A DNA stretch of 42,527 nucleotides, from assembly GCA_024653775.1 (NCBI GenBank), contig JANLHZ010000329.1, positions 1 to 42,527 on the forward strand, written 5' to 3'. Every line of letters starts with the position of its first letter. The stretch's first letter is position 1. Positions 4,407 to 42,527 of this stretch are shown here, piece by piece. The position numbers were made by a program, and so were the translations under genes. This stretch comes from Planctomycetota bacterium. GTDB lineage: Bacteria; Planctomycetota; UBA8742; JACQVU01; JANLHZ01. The notes beneath the pieces are model-generated. The model ran no database searches, was not told where the DNA came from, and saw nothing but the letters and a program-made list of their open reading frames with translations.

Positions 4407-7277
4407 CTATTTTGCCTTTGAGAGTTGTTTGAGGATATCCAATATTTCGCCTGGTCTTCTCGCGACGGCCGAATGCCAGACGCCGAACTCGCCTGTCGAA
4501 TTTACGGCTTCGATCCATTCGCTCAGCGCGCCAAGCTTGACTCGATCCTGCTCCGATTCCTCGCCTTTGGTTTCAAGAACCAGCATCGAGCCACTTGCAA
4601 GCCTGATCAGGAAATCCGGTCTGTATTTTCTTACCACTCCGCGATAGATGTACAGAATTTCAAAACCGAGGTGATCGTTTTTCACCCAGGAGTCGACATG
4701 TTCGGAATTATCGAGTGCAAAAGCGTCCGACGACTCCCATGTGCTGTCGTAGACGCAGAAGTTTATATGCGATTTATTTGTTTTGCCACAAGGTTTGCCC
4801 GTTAACCAGGTCCGCATGTCCCCGGTCGATCTGAGGGGACGATTCGAGTCGAACACGGGGATAATTTGCTCCGAATTGATTTGCCGCACGAATAAGAAAG
4901 CATGATTCAATACTTTCGACATACTGAGAGTTATTGCCACTCTTCGCAGCAGGTCGTTTTCATTGTACGCATACGGGTGGATTCTGATTTTGTCGGAACG
5001 AATGAACCTGTCCGCGATGCAGGCCAGTTGACCGATAAGATATTCCCGATTTCCCTTCCAGTTCGTCCCCACCTGTTCGAACAGATTGCGCGCGGTTTCA
5101 AAAACGATTCGCTGGGTCCGAAATTCTCTCGCCAGTTTTTCAAGTTCGATCAGTCGCGCATTGGTGAAATCCGTTTCTCCGTCAACCATCGGAGCGATTT
5201 CGGCTATTTTCGCTATTATAGACGCGTCCAGTTCCAGTTCTTCTACAAGCTCCATGTCGATAATCAATCTTTGACGAAGCATATTTTCAATCCTGACGAT
5301 ATTTGGCCAGGTTGATTCAAACTCGATTTTCTGCGGATCGGGACCTACCTCTATTGGCTGGGTCGTAGGAGGATTGGCGTCACCTCGGCCCTCGTGCGGA
5401 AGGAACGAAAATGGAACTCCAAAAATATTTACATATTCCGCATCGAATAACTCCGTTTCCTCGCCCGATACGGGGTCGGTCGATTTTTTGACGTCGTACT
5501 TCGACCTTCGAAGACCCCGACCGACAACCTGCTCGCAAAGAAGCTGACTCGAGAACGCTCTAAGTCCCATTATGTGCGTCACGGTTTTTGCGTCCCAGCC
5601 CTCGCTGAGCATCGCAACGGAAATGATGTTTTGAAATTTCTCGCCAGGCATGCCTTCCCTGCCCACGGTGGCGACCTGCCTGCGTATCAGCTCTTTCCGC
5701 TTTTCCTTATTCGAATCCGGTCTGGCAGCTTCCGCGTCGCCCACGTCTTCCTCGGCATTCTCCGCGTCGAAATCGGGCTGCTCCTCTTCCTTCGATTCAG
5801 CTTCCTCAAGCGTTTTAGAATCGATCTGCAAACACCTCGATTTGTCGCAAAGCTCGTTGATTAAAATGTTGCCGTTATCGAACGCATGTTTCACCCGCGC
5901 CGACGTTTCAATCCTGTTGCACACCGAAATCATCACAGGCCGCACAGGACGCCCCTCGGTCTCCCATTTCCTTTTGTATTCCAGCCAGTCGAGGCCAAGA
6001 AGATAATAGGCGTTCAGCACCAGATCGGGAAGGGGCTCCTCAGGCTCCGCCTTTCGATTCAGATCGTCCTTTACCTCCGGGTCATCGTAAATATGGTAGA
6101 GCCTCGACTTGTACGTTTTCGCGTTGGGCACGGAATCGTCCCTGACAACGATCCGAGGCGTCTTTACCAGACCTGATTCGATCGCGTCGTTCAGTCCGAA
6201 ATCGCTGACGATCCACTGGAAAAGTGATTCATCCGAACTGTTCTTCCCGGAGGGAACGAAAGGCGTGGCTGAAAAATCGAAGCAGCCCAAAATGTTCCTG
6301 GACCTGTGGATTCGGTCGAGGCCGCCTATCCAGACCGTCGATTCCTTCAGTTCGTTCTGATTGTACTTGCTTGCCGATTCCGGGCTTACCCTCCATGCAT
6401 GGTGCGCTTCGTCGTTTATGACGATCAGGTTTTTCGCGCTCGCCATGTCGCATAGAATCTGCCTGGAATACGCATCTAAGCTGATTTCCATTCTTTTTCG
6501 CTTATCGACGGTATTAAGCGAACGCGCGTTGTTTTTCCCCTTCCTCTTCATCTTCTCGTCCAGCTTTTCCTGGGAATCCCAGGCGAGCGCGTGCCAGTTG
6601 TGGATTAGAACTTTTCCCTGCCTCAGTTTTTCCATCAGCGCCGACGGAACGATATCGAATGCCTCGTAGTAGTTTTCTTTGGCTGAAGGTCCGAGAACCG
6701 AAAGCCTGCTCTTTACGGTAAGACCTGGCGCGACGACGAGCACGTTTTTCGAGAACCTCGCGTCCTGTGGATACGTGACCTTGTTCAGAGTTTGCCACGC
6801 GATAAGCATTGCCATTACGATCGTTTTTCCCGAACCCGTCGCCATTTTGCAGCACCTGCGGACGAAATCTCCGCCATCGCCAGGAATGTCGACCCCCAAT
6901 TTTTCCGATTCGGGCGCTTCGATCAGCCAGATAAGAGTTTCGATCGCTTCGAGCTGACAGAAGAAAAACCTTCTCGTTCCGAAATTCTCGGGATCCTGCC
7001 AGTATTCGAGAAGCCTTCTCGTGATACTCGTGACTCCAGGATATCCGCTTTTTCTCCACCTCGCGACTCTCGGTCTGATCTTGTTGACGAGAGGAATTTC
7101 GATGAATACGCCTGCTGCATCCCGAGACCTCGAATCCTTCGAGGCGACAACGTACCCCGCGGGTCTTCTCCCTTCGATCAGATCGAATAACTTCGTCTCG
7201 TGTTCATATTTCCAGTATTTCTTCGGCTCGACATAAGGCGAGTTCACGATGAGCCTGTCTATGGTCGCGGTCGACAT
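4407..7277 (-). CDS. Restriction subunit: superfamily 2 helicase with C-terminal PD-(D/E)XK nuclease (type III Res-like)
   Basis: The 956-residue protein has the order expected of a type III Res subunit. Helicase motifs are MATGSGKT (about 145-152, Walker A), INDEAHHAW (DEAH about 289-292), FDFSATPF (about 335) and EQVVGRGLRRS (motif VI, about 640). Near the C-terminus RPDFLIRL and LVLETKG (about 886-906) form a PD-(D/E)XK nuclease core. The protein should translocate on and cut unmodified DNA with the adjacent methyltransferase. The frame is open to 7526, but I place the start at the ATG at 7277. There the Mod stop TAA and the Res ATG share one base (TAATG), the usual sign of translational coupling. 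It lies downstream of mod on the same strand and converges with the plus-strand gene ending at 4374. Confidence 0.9.
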   Translation of the reverse strand: MSTATIDRLIVNSPYVEPKKYWKYEHETKLFDLIEGRRPAGYVVASKDSRSRDAAGVFIEIPLVNKIRPRVARWRKSGYPGVTSITRRLLEYWQDPENFGTRRFFFCQLEAIETLIWLIEAPESEKLGVDIPGDGGDFVRRCCKMATGSGKTIVMAMLIAWQTLNKVTYPQDARFSKNVLVVAPGLTVKSRLSVLGPSAKENYYEAFDIVPSALMEKLRQGKVLIHNWHALAWDSQEKLDEKMKRKGKNNARSLNTVDKRKRMEISLDAYSRQILCDMASAKNLIVINDEAHHAWRVSPESASKYNQNELKESTVWIGGLDRIHRSRNILGCFDFSATPFVPSGKNSSDESLFQWIVSDFGLNDAIESGLVKTPRIVVRDDSVPNAKTYKSRLYHIYDDPEVKDDLNRKAEPEEPLPDLVLNAYYLLGLDWLEYKRKWETEGRPVRPVMISVCNRIETSARVKHAFDNGNILINELCDKSRCLQIDSKTLEEAESKEEEQPDFDAENAEEDVGDAEAARPDSNKEKRKELIRRQVATVGREGMPGEKFQNIISVAMLSEGWDAKTVTHIMGLRAFSSQLLCEQVVGRGLRRSKYDVKKSTDPVSGEETELFDAEYVNIFGVPFSFLPHEGRGDANPPTTQPIEVGPDPQKIEFESTWPNIVRIENMLRQRLIIDMELVEELELDASIIAKIAEIAPMVDGETDFTNARLIELEKLAREFRTQRIVFETARNLFEQVGTNWKGNREYLIGQLACIADRFIRSDKIRIHPYAYNENDLLRRVAITLSMSKVLNHAFLFVRQINSEQIIPVFDSNRPLRSTGDMRTWLTGKPCGKTNKSHINFCVYDSTWESSDAFALDNSEHVDSWVKNDHLGFEILYIYRGVVRKYRPDFLIRLASGSMLVLETKGEESEQDRVKLGALSEWIEAVNSTGEFGVWHSAVARRPGEILDILKQLSKAK

Positions 7278-9886
7278 TAGATGGCCTCCATGATCTTCAG
7301 ACTTTCGATTCCTCGGTCGTCCACAATTTTCACCGCGATTCGTCTGTGCGATCCAGGGTCGAACGGCAAGGACTCCGTACCTCTGAACATCTCGATTTTT
7401 TCCTCGTCTATCTCCGCTTTCAGACTCTTCGCAAGGCGCGCCCAACCGTCCTTCGCTCCCGCCATCGGAAAGAACACCTGACAGGGAAAAAGGCTTCGAC
7501 CGTCGTAATCCGTATCTAGAAGCCATACCGCGATTCTCTCCGAACCTCCGCTTTCGATCCCTCCCGTCCTCGTGTTGTAATAATCGAATCCTTCCACATG
7601 CACCTTGAGACGACCTTTGTCCTCTCCTTTCGCAACACGCTCGATTCGAACATCCGGCTGACCAATCAGCCAGAAGCTCTCATTCGACGCGCGCTTCTTT
7701 CTCAGGTCGTCGGTCAGGAGGTCCGCGTTCATCTGCGCCTTGAGCAGTGTAACCCCCGGCCAGTTCGTTTCGTCAATATCCTTCGCGGCTTCAGGGTCGA
7801 ACTGGAACGACGCGAATACCACCAGCTTCGGACGCGGAACCAGATTCTGCGCTTCCCGTATCGCGTCCTCCACCTGTCTTTGCTCGAAGGGCGCATGCTG
7901 AGGTCCAAACGACACTACGGTTCGACTTGCCTCCTCTCCTTCGTTTACTGGTATGGTTTCTCCGTCCGCGCTTAGACTTCTGCATCCCGGTAGAGCCTCC
8001 AACCTGGAAAACCTGATATACTGCCCTCCCTTTCCGCGGATTCCGGTTCGTAGTAACTCATCCCTCCACTCTTCCTGGCGAATGGTCTCTCCCGACCTCG
8101 CTATCGACGCATCCGCTCTAAACTCACGCTCTGTCTCGATTTTTCCCTCCGACAATGTGTCTTCGATGGACATCACCATCGGCGCGGGAACCGCCTCGAC
8201 CGTAAATGGACCCGTTACTCGAGATTTGCTACGATCCTTCTCCGGCTGGTCGTACAGCGTCTCGGTATCGGCGTACTTGGCGATGGCCCGGTCGATTTGC
8301 TCGCGGGTCATGCCTTCCTTGATCTCCGGGTTATTTGCGATGCTTTTGAGCGTGACGTGCGGCACGGTCTTGTATTTGAATCCGCTGCCCACGCCCTGCT
8401 CGGGATGCGCCAGCGTGTAGTAGTCGAAGACTGCGGTCATCAGGCGCTGTTTGGCGAGGGTGATGGCGACGCGCGAGGTGTCGGTGGTGATCCACCGCCG
8501 GCCCCACTGCTCCGCCACGACCGCCGTCGTCCCCGACCCGCACGTCGGATCCAGCACCAGATCGCCGGGGTCGGTGGTCATGAGGAGGCAACGCTGGATG
8601 ACTTTCTCATTCGTTTGAACAACATAGATCGGTGACGAGGCGCCCATCACGTCGGACCAAACGTTGTTCAACGGCGTCACCGCGAAGTCGTCGAGCATCA
8701 TCTTGTAACGAAGTGTTGCCTTCGTCGCTAGGATGCGGTTCGCATGGATTAAGCGCTCGATCCCCTCCGGCGAAGTGCTCCAGTACCGTCCTCCTGGAGT
8801 GAATGAACGCCCCCCGAACTGCACTGCTTCCTTCCCACGCGAATACTCGTGCGAGCTGGTGAGTGCCACCGACTGAAAAACGCGTCCGATGGTTCGCGCG
8901 ATTCGCTCGGAGGCCCGCTCCTCATCGGTGAGTCGTCGAATAGTTCCGTCGTCTAGCTCGACATAGTCATAAGAGAACGGGATCGCGCCGCCGTTGCCGC
9001 GCCCGACGAAGACGTCACGATACTTCAGGCAAGCGCGATCCTTTGCGTAGAAGAGCAAGTAGTCCGCGATCGTCTTGAGTGCTCCGGCGGTCCCACCGCC
9101 AGTTTTCTGAACCGTTATCTCGCTGACGAAGTTCGTTGATCCAAATACTTCATCCATCAACTCCCGCACGTGATGAATGTTCTCATCACTGATCTGCACA
9201 AAACACGACCCGCTCGCATGTAAAAGTTCCTTCGCCAGGAGCAGGCGGTCGCGGAGGTAGGTCAGGTAGGAGTGGATGCCCAGCTCCCACGTGTCGCGGA
9301 AGGCCTTGAGCGTTTCCGGCTCCAGCGTCAGGTCGTCGTCGCTGCCGTCCTTCACATCGCGCTTGTTGGTGAACGGCTGGAAGTTGGAGCCGTAGCGGAT
9401 GCCGTAGGGCGGGTCGATGTAGATCATCTGCACCTGCCCGCCTAAGCCTTCCTTTTCCAGCAGCGAGTTCATGACCAGCAGCGAGTCGCCGGCGATGAGG
9501 CGGTTCTTCCAGCCGAGGGGATGTTTGTAGAATTCCAGGGTGGATCTTAGCGGTGAATCCCTGTCTTCCCGAAACAATGAAAGTTGGTGTTTTTTCTCGC
9601 CGTTTTTTCTTTTGACGGATTCGACGATTGTTTTCGGATCGATGCGTTCGTGTACGTGAAGTGAAACCGTGGGTACATCGAAGGAAGTGTGCTCGGTTTT
9701 TCCGGTCCAGACCAGCGTTGGATCGAGGTGAGGATCGTAATCGTATTTTTTCTTTTTCTGTCCCCGATCCGGGTCCGTTTCAGGAGTGACGAGGCCCGCG
9801 GGAGGATTATTTGCGCGCTTCTTGTCCGCGTGTTCATAGGCTTCCACCGGACGTTTCGCGTTCGTTTTCTTTTTTGGGGGACTCAT
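7277..9886 (-). CDS. Site-specific DNA methyltransferase, beta-class N6/N4 type (type III Mod-like)
   Basis: The 869-residue product carries the amino-methyltransferase motifs in beta order. The catalytic IYIDPPYG comes first (DPPY about 158-161), and the AdoMet-binding DPTCGSGTT comes later (about 446-453). This order and the coupled helicase-nuclease gene fit a type III modification subunit, which methylates adenine on one strand of an asymmetric site. The segment between the motifs should include target recognition; the long C-terminal part (about 500-869) is less clear. I start at ATG 9886 (MSPPKKKTN), because the 22 codons upstream look non-coding. The base and codon style changes along the gene: about 8330-9530 is GC-rich, while the two ends are AT-richer. 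This suggests a mosaic origin. It ends one base into the restriction gene. Confidence 0.9.
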   Translation of the reverse strand: MSPPKKKTNAKRPVEAYEHADKKRANNPPAGLVTPETDPDRGQKKKKYDYDPHLDPTLVWTGKTEHTSFDVPTVSLHVHERIDPKTIVESVKRKNGEKKHQLSLFREDRDSPLRSTLEFYKHPLGWKNRLIAGDSLLVMNSLLEKEGLGGQVQMIYIDPPYGIRYGSNFQPFTNKRDVKDGSDDDLTLEPETLKAFRDTWELGIHSYLTYLRDRLLLAKELLHASGSCFVQISDENIHHVRELMDEVFGSTNFVSEITVQKTGGGTAGALKTIADYLLFYAKDRACLKYRDVFVGRGNGGAIPFSYDYVELDDGTIRRLTDEERASERIARTIGRVFQSVALTSSHEYSRGKEAVQFGGRSFTPGGRYWSTSPEGIERLIHANRILATKATLRYKMMLDDFAVTPLNNVWSDVMGASSPIYVVQTNEKVIQRCLLMTTDPGDLVLDPTCGSGTTAVVAEQWGRRWITTDTSRVAITLAKQRLMTAVFDYYTLAHPEQGVGSGFKYKTVPHVTLKSIANNPEIKEGMTREQIDRAIAKYADTETLYDQPEKDRSKSRVTGPFTVEAVPAPMVMSIEDTLSEGKIETEREFRADASIARSGETIRQEEWRDELLRTGIRGKGGQYIRFSRLEALPGCRSLSADGETIPVNEGEEASRTVVSFGPQHAPFEQRQVEDAIREAQNLVPRPKLVVFASFQFDPEAAKDIDETNWPGVTLLKAQMNADLLTDDLRKKRASNESFWLIGQPDVRIERVAKGEDKGRLKVHVEGFDYYNTRTGGIESGGSERIAVWLLDTDYDGRSLFPCQVFFPMAGAKDGWARLAKSLKAEIDEEKIEMFRGTESLPFDPGSHRRIAVKIVDDRGIESLKIMEAI

Positions 9887-10057
9887 CCTGCGCCTCTCGC
9901 AATTTCGGATTTTTGAACTTGATGCAGGGATAATAGACGGGTAGCCGGACATTTTTCAAAGGTTTGTAAATTTTCAGGGAATCTCGGACTCTGTTCAATA
10001 GAAGTTCGTGGAACGATTACCGAAACTGCAAATACGTTCGATTTTCCCGTCGCTTCA

Positions 10058-10652: not shown

Positions 10653-10684
10653 TTTCGACACCCTCCGATTGGGAGTGCGGATGT

Positions 10685-10842
10685 CTTTGTCTGTAACTGT
10701 TCACGGGGTAGTTCGCGTTCTATAGCAGGAATCTGTTCGTAGTGTGCTCGTGAGAGCATATTTCCAGATAGTAGAGGATCAAAGAAACGCCTTACGGCGC
10801 CACTACAAACGCGATCTACCCCGTGAACAGTTACCTTTGTCT
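10685..10842 (+). mobile_element. IS66-type MITE, copy A, with 8-bp target duplication
   Basis: The 142-bp element (10693-10834) begins GTAACTGTTCACGGGGTAG and ends with its exact complement; the arms stay matched for 26 of 27 bp. CTTTGTCT lies directly outside each end (10685-10692 and 10835-10842), a perfect 8-bp target duplication. Ends starting GTAA with 8-bp duplications are established features of the IS66 family. No frame inside could encode a transposase, so the element must be moved in trans. Relatives are at 23051-23196 and 42416-end. Confidence 0.88.
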
Positions 10843-10878
10843 GCGCATTCGGGCGCACGCAGCGCGCCCCTGCTATTT

Positions 10879-23042: not shown

Positions 23043-23204
23043 CAATTTCCACAACTGTTCACGGGGTAGATCGCGGTCTATGGCGGGATTCTGTAGTAGT
23101 GTGCCCGTGAGAGCATCCAGTTCGTAGTGTGCCCGTCAGGGCATCTTCAACGCCTTACAAGCCACTACGAACGCGAACTACCCCGTGAACAGTTACCAAT
23201 TTCC
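23043..23204 (+). mobile_element. IS66-type MITE, copy B, with 8-bp target duplication
   Basis: The 146-bp element (23051-23196) starts ACAACTGTTCACGGGGTAG, where the first two bases have drifted from GT, and ends CTACCCCGTGAACAGTTAC. CAATTTCC flanks it exactly on both sides (23043-23050 and 23197-23204). The interior shares GTAGTGTGCCCGT and CGCCTTAC wording with copy A. It sits between the WecA-like gene and the portal gene, so it marks the left side of the phage-like cassette. Confidence 0.88.
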
Positions 23205-25534: not shown

Positions 25535-25657
25535 TCAATTACGAATTACGAATGAAGCCCTCACCCGACCTTTGAGCACCCTCCCCCGGGAGGAGGGGAA
25601 CTGAAGTCGATGCCCTTACGGGCACACTACGAACTAACAACGAAAGGACTTTGAAAA
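25535..25657. repeat. Spacer with AATTACG heptads and a small hairpin
   Basis: Two AATTACG units (25537-25550) are followed by AATGAAGCCC, the same junction seen after the longer array near 26858. CCTCCCCCGGGAGGAGG then forms a hairpin, and GATGCCCTTACGGGCACACTACGAA shares wording with the interior of the IS66-type MITEs. No coding sequence. Confidence 0.65.
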
Positions 25658-42352: not shown

Positions 42353-42375
42353 TTATCGGTAAAGCTGATAAAGAC

Positions 42376-42415
42376 GAACCCCGCGATTCGCTGAATCCGC
42401 GGGGTTCTCTTTTTT
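42376..42415 (+). terminator. Rho-independent terminator
   Basis: GAACCCCGCG (42376-42385) pairs with CGCGGGGTTC (42398-42407), with extra ATTC/GAAT pairing inside, followed by TCTTTTTT. It terminates the small lipoprotein gene. Confidence 0.85.
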
Positions 42416-42527
42416 GTAACTGTTCACTGGGTAGTTCGCGTTCGTAGTGGCGCCGTAAGGCGCTTCTTTGATCCACCACACCGCGAAAATATGCTCTCAC
42501 GAGCACACTACGAACAGATTCCCGCTA
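42416..42527 (-). mobile_element. IS66-type MITE, copy C (truncated by window end)
   Basis: Begins GTAACTGTTCACTGGGTAG, one base different from the other copies, and runs in the opposite orientation to copy A, matching its complement along the interior (for example CGTAGTGGCGCCGTAAGGCG). It sits exactly after the T-run of the terminator. If intact, the copy should end about 34 bp past the window and be followed by TCTTTTTT, the 8 bases before it. Confidence 0.82.

Follow-up and report, generated by a model that had tools for sequence, protein, structure and literature searches.

The window, by which we mean the whole stretch of 42,527 nucleotides that was analysed (contig JANLHZ010000329.1 of the Planctomycetota assembly GCA_024653775.1), carries two complete copies and one partial copy of a short, gene-less repeat with inverted ends, which we describe as a MITE. 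Adjoining large genes at window 4407-9952 have family matches to type III restriction (PF04851) and DNA methylase (PF01555) proteins, and a search of the window against Rfam gave no match. The features of the three copies are as follows.

10685..10692, no strand: left target-site duplication of copy A, CTTTGTCT, an exact match to 10835-10842
10693..10834, plus strand: MITE copy A, 142 bp, with 19-bp perfect terminal inverted repeats
10739..10758, plus strand: internal GTAG-tagged REP-like hairpin of copy A, type A (GTAGTG TGCTC GTGA GAGCA)
10788..10806, minus strand: internal GTAG-tagged REP-like hairpin of copy A, type B (GTAGTGG CGCC GTAA GGCG), convergent with type A
10835..10842, no strand: right target-site duplication of copy A, CTTTGTCT
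23043..23050, no strand: left target-site duplication of copy B, CAATTTCC
23051..23196, plus strand: MITE copy B, 146 bp, whose left end begins ACAACTG and has two mismatches
23096..23115, plus strand: type-A REP-like hairpin of copy B, read from the sequence
23124..23143, plus strand: second type-A REP-like unit of copy B (an extra unit), read from the sequence
23150..23168, minus strand: type-B REP-like unit of copy B with a degenerate stem, read from the sequence
23197..23204, no strand: right target-site duplication of copy B, CAATTTCC
42416..42527, plus strand: third MITE copy, of which 112 bp remain before the contig breaks off

A sequence-only reading of this DNA had proposed three elements of about 145 bp with common ends, which describes copies A and B well, but the third is cut by the end of the contig. 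The inverted ends of copy A are GTAACTGTTCACGGGGTAG, and the perfect 8-bp duplications claimed for copies A and B are exact on both sides of each. The interiors, which had been called conserved, are indeed alike but not uniform, given the extra hairpin unit of copy B. Five ends with three or fewer mismatches occur in the window, where shuffled sequences lead us to expect none. Both strands of the element give strong folds over its full length (-71.6 kcal/mol and a z-score of -10 for copy A, a z-score of -7 for copy B), as its inverted ends would lead one to expect. Copy A sits within another dispersed repeat (window 10660-10692 and 10835-10870) that is related to L122:281-365 and L114:7834-7876, and similar repeats recur throughout the genome. 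The third copy lies directly 3' of a strong terminator-like hairpin and T run (window 42370-42416), and T runs also precede several other copies.

The source assembly comprises 5.42 Mb in 331 contigs, is 96% complete and is the sole genome of its family in the library that was searched. The search for all copies that had been suggested on the basis of the window returned 248 genome-wide matches to the 19-bp end with up to three mismatches, and a reversed control returned none. The detailed survey covered 1.51 Mb, about 28% of the genome, in contigs picked for holding the element. These contain 66 pairs of ends less than 260 bp apart, with a modal element length of 141-142 bp, and 43 of the 66 are flanked by duplications matching at seven or more of eight positions (exact in 32, 7/8 in 11); for random 8-mers placed 142 bp apart the chance levels are 0.045% for an exact match and 0.2% for 7/8 or better. 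Median identity to the consensus is 92% among 50 copies. One identical 70-bp terminus is common to 15 contig ends and another is shared by eight, and these identical termini point to a recent burst of copies. Of 102 contig ends, 42 fall within a MITE copy, a proportion that belongs to contigs chosen for the element and does not apply to the genome at large. Some hundred or more gene-less copies are scattered through the genome. In addition, a 411-bp element at L115:10095-10505, with ends GTAACTGTTCACGGGGTG and GTAACCGTTCACGGGGTG, a different interior and AATTTTCA flanks offset by one base, represents a further subfamily with this type of end.

The duplications are AT-rich, at 36% G+C against 56% in the surveyed stretches, and tend towards a palindrome of approximately SAATATTY. 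For an empty-site search the flanks of each element were joined with a single copy of the duplication and compared with the same stretches, and for several insertions uninterrupted repeat copies were found to span the junction: for copy A in L122 (75.6% over 86 bp), for L112:5237-5377 in L156 (96% over 56 bp) and for L134:10587-10727 in L143 (91% over 68 bp). Since these sites lie inside other repeats that exist without the element, they confirm insertion; they are paralogous and not orthologous sites, as the comparison was made within this one genome. A short unit with terminal inverted repeats, a constant 8-bp duplication, many copies and empty sites is what is expected of a MITE, and at 142 bp with no encoded IS66 transposase it is not an autonomous IS66 insertion sequence.

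GTAA-starting ends and 8-bp duplications had been put forward as IS66 traits, and both are borne out by real elements of the phylum. The IS66 transposase domain PF03050 is present in 56 of 149 sampled genomes of the phylum, where complete IS66 elements begin with GTAA at their ends and are flanked by exact 8-bp duplications: GTAAGCGTCCGACGA in L196, GTAAGCG(A/T)CCG in L231, GTAACGCTCCGAT in L236, GTAACACTTTAGTTC in L244, L250, L251 and L252, and GTAACCGTTCAGCCCC with GTAAGCGTTCACCCTC in L245. Some of the IS66 loci examined could not be delimited by GTAA ends and a duplication, and the ends of a few are of another kind (L206, GGGACCGTTCG). Published descriptions give IS66 inverted repeats of 20-30 bp with a GTAAGCG start and 8-bp repeats (PMC11946415), and GTAACCGTCCGGGCA has been reported at IS66 ends (PMC12888890). 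The MITE has both the GTAA-starting inverted repeat and the 8-bp target duplication, and on these sequence features its assignment to the IS66 end type is well supported.

The closest end match to an element bearing an IS66 transposase was found in another genome of the phylum. L242 is a 2571-bp element bracketed by GTAACCGTTCACGGG and GTAACCGTTCACAGGGG, with identity to the MITE ends over the first 12-15 bases only (15 at the GTAACCGTTCACGGG end), and its genes encode an IS66 transposase of 484 amino acids (PF03050, 1.4e-38) and a DruA-like frame (PF14236, 2.2e-33). No matching target duplication was found at the flanks of this copy. Lacking such a duplication, and with no more than about 15 bp of its ends in common with the MITEs, L242 is at best a relative and not the parent.

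It had been supposed that the transposase lies outside the window, which fits the family as a whole, but PF03050 has no match anywhere in the 96% complete assembly. The sequence-only reading had named the absence of an IS66-like transposase with matching ends as grounds for giving up the assignment, and taken literally this is what the genome search found. Pairs of ends with a duplication, sought in 1.5 Mb at separations of up to 6-8 kb, were all MITE-sized, the longest being 305 bp, and comparing about 4,400 frames with one another to reveal a multicopy transposase yielded nothing useful. DruA (PF14236) was not found in the source genome either, in a search with no match in a control genome, although the same model finds 41 of 392 phylum genomes elsewhere. 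We take the absent IS66 gene to mean a lost or unassembled parent, which does not refute the end type. The assembly has gaps and breaks at the MITE repeats, and metagenome bins often lack elements that occur in many identical copies; the parent may have been lost from the genome, left unassembled or collapsed in the assembly, or left unbinned, for example on a plasmid. Many accepted MITEs have no parent in the same genome.

We consider it highly probable that these are IS66-type MITEs moved in trans by an IS66-type DDE transposase and carrying a picked-up REP-like pair. A MITE without a transposase of its own would have its GTAAC[C/T]GTTCACGGGGTAG ends recognised in trans by such an enzyme, possibly one of a subgroup that carries a DruA-like gene, and would be inserted at AT-rich, roughly palindromic 8-bp targets, giving rise to the flanking duplications; a convergent pair of GTAG-tagged REP-like hairpins would have been picked up as its interior. 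It is the ends and the duplications that suggest mobilisation by IS66, and the identity of the mover, any DruA-like role and the capture of the REP pair, as opposed to its ancestral presence, are parts of this scheme that we infer. The chief competing explanation is that another DDE family with 8-bp duplications, such as IS256, ISL3, IS1595 or others, moves the MITE and that the GTAA start is coincidental. The lack of an IS66 transposase in the source genome, where the families searched for were IS66, DruA and Y1, lends this some weight, but the ends of IS66 elements of the phylum match those of the MITE up to the first 12-15 bases, and the other families with 8-bp duplications typically have GG- or CA-starting ends, so that we regard this explanation as improbable.

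The interior of the MITE, which the sequence-only reading missed along with the recent burst, consists of two convergent hairpins with a GTAG foot, GTAGTG-TGCTC-GTGA-GAGCA and GTAGTGG-CGCC-GTAA-GGCG. Among 50 aligned copies the stems are perfect in 39 for TGCTC/GAGCA and in 38 for CGCC/GGCG. Related units also stand free of MITE ends, with 14 of type A and 20 of type B in 1.5 Mb and none for four altered-foot controls, and they are arranged singly, as 45-bp doublets or in tandem arrays. The stem of free type-A units is TGCCC/GGGCA, as against TGCTC/GAGCA in the MITE, so that both partners of the pair have changed. Examples of free hairpins are found at L107:19721-19910, L125:6895-7023, L146:8138-8265 and window 25611-25630, and the doublets and arrays are regularly spaced at about 28, 39 or 48 bp. 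A GTAG foot with a palindrome, in paired and in free-standing form, is expected of REP and REPIN sequences and is seen here, and GTAG-tagged REP repeats are known from, among others, the PVC superphylum (PMC3733652). Either the MITE captured a REP doublet or the free units derive from decayed MITEs, and the arrays of free units without MITE ends lead us to favour capture.

These hairpins raise the question of whether a RAYT/Y1 transposase, and not a DDE enzyme, has spread the repeats as REP doublets (REPINs), a reading for which the GTAG-tagged pair that also occurs alone and five Y1_Tnp matches in the source genome could be cited. None of the five Y1_Tnp genes has these hairpins within 1.2 kb, which leaves no flanking RAYT among them, and neither 8-bp duplications nor long terminal inverted repeats are expected from the RAYT mechanism. 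As mobiliser of the 142-bp unit a RAYT is contradicted by the duplications and is very unlikely, though such an enzyme could yet account for the inner hairpins. A doubly mobile composite, in which a REP doublet mobile through a RAYT-like enzyme came to lie between IS66 ends and a DDE transposase then multiplied it, is a speculative possibility that we think unlikely; if true, a single element of 142 bp would link two mobility systems that are unrelated.

DruA-like genes are known from the Druantia defence system. Genes with PF14236 lie beside IS66 transposases inside GTAAC-ended elements in several genomes of the phylum (L242:825-1541 with 1531-2985; the L244 and L250 types), and several elements with both IS66 and DruA-like genes have 8-bp duplications. 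L066, too, has a DruA-like frame, which starts 0.3 kb inward from an exact GTAACCGTTCACGGGGTAG end and is cut by the contig end. Elsewhere the DruA domain is fused to a Tn5-type transposase in proteins of about 770 amino acids (L279:1207-3519; L302:633-2839), and the fusion element L302 is bounded by CTTATCTTTACCCAC-type ends with a duplication of 9 bp, which makes such fusions an unlikely source of the MITE ends. Mobilisation by a DruA-like gene fused to a Tn5/IS50-type transposase, for which the occurrence of such fusions in the phylum and the DruA-like genes in L242 and L066 could be cited, is the least credible of the explanations, being rejected on ends and duplication length, and DruA was not found in the source genome. 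Searches covering part of the literature on DruA or DUF4338 with transposases found no title or abstract describing this link; DruA-like genes that partner IS66 or are fused to a Tn5-type transposase bear on the role of DruA.

The end type reaches beyond this genome. Among species genomes the exact 19-bp end was found only in one Desulfobacterales MAG, as a single copy where two contig ends overlap (L061:16-34 and L062:66-84), and the sequence inside differs. Two stretches from another genome, whose flanks were read by eye, have ends with the same core, exact 8-bp duplications and unrelated interiors (L065, 275 bp, GAACTGAG; L068, 273 bp, AAGGGGGC). A search of viral contigs with the 16-bp core gave four stretches, two of which have paired ends and different interiors; the viral-contig stretches L193 and L194, with near matches, have interiors unrelated to the MITE. 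Plasmids searched for the MITE end gave no match. As the same core end surrounds unrelated interiors elsewhere, the end type is widespread and gene-less elements have made use of it repeatedly.

What we describe is a new and recently active MITE family with IS66-type ends and a REP-like core; it is not a new kind of thing, and targeted searches with partial coverage of the literature found no description of an IS66-derived MITE. It offers a clear example, rich in data, of a burst of IS66-type MITEs. It shows that ends of IS66 type lacking a transposase gene can build up in a genome to the equivalent of well over a hundred copies, and it illustrates both that MITE copies of this kind fragment assemblies and that REP-like hairpins can ride within a DDE-type element.

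Like the IS66 family (PF03050, with the phylum relatives L242, L244 and L250 that carry a DruA-like gene), the MITE has GTAA-starting inverted ends and an 8-bp duplication, and it has GTAACCGTTCACGGG in common with L242, but the IS66 elements whose limits were determined measure about 1.5-2.6 kb and carry a transposase, whereas the MITE is 142 bp and has none. Other bacterial MITEs such as MITEPsy1 (PMC3189936) are likewise short and gene-less, with inverted ends and target duplications, and are presumably moved in trans; MITEPsy1 is probably derived from ISPsy2 and makes a 4-nt duplication, in contrast to the IS66-type ends, 8-bp duplication and internal REP pair found here. GTAG-tagged REPs and REP dimers (PMC3733652) likewise have a GTAG foot and a short palindromic stem and are paired and clustered, whereas here no flanking RAYT was found and most units lie inside a larger DDE-type-ended element with target duplications.
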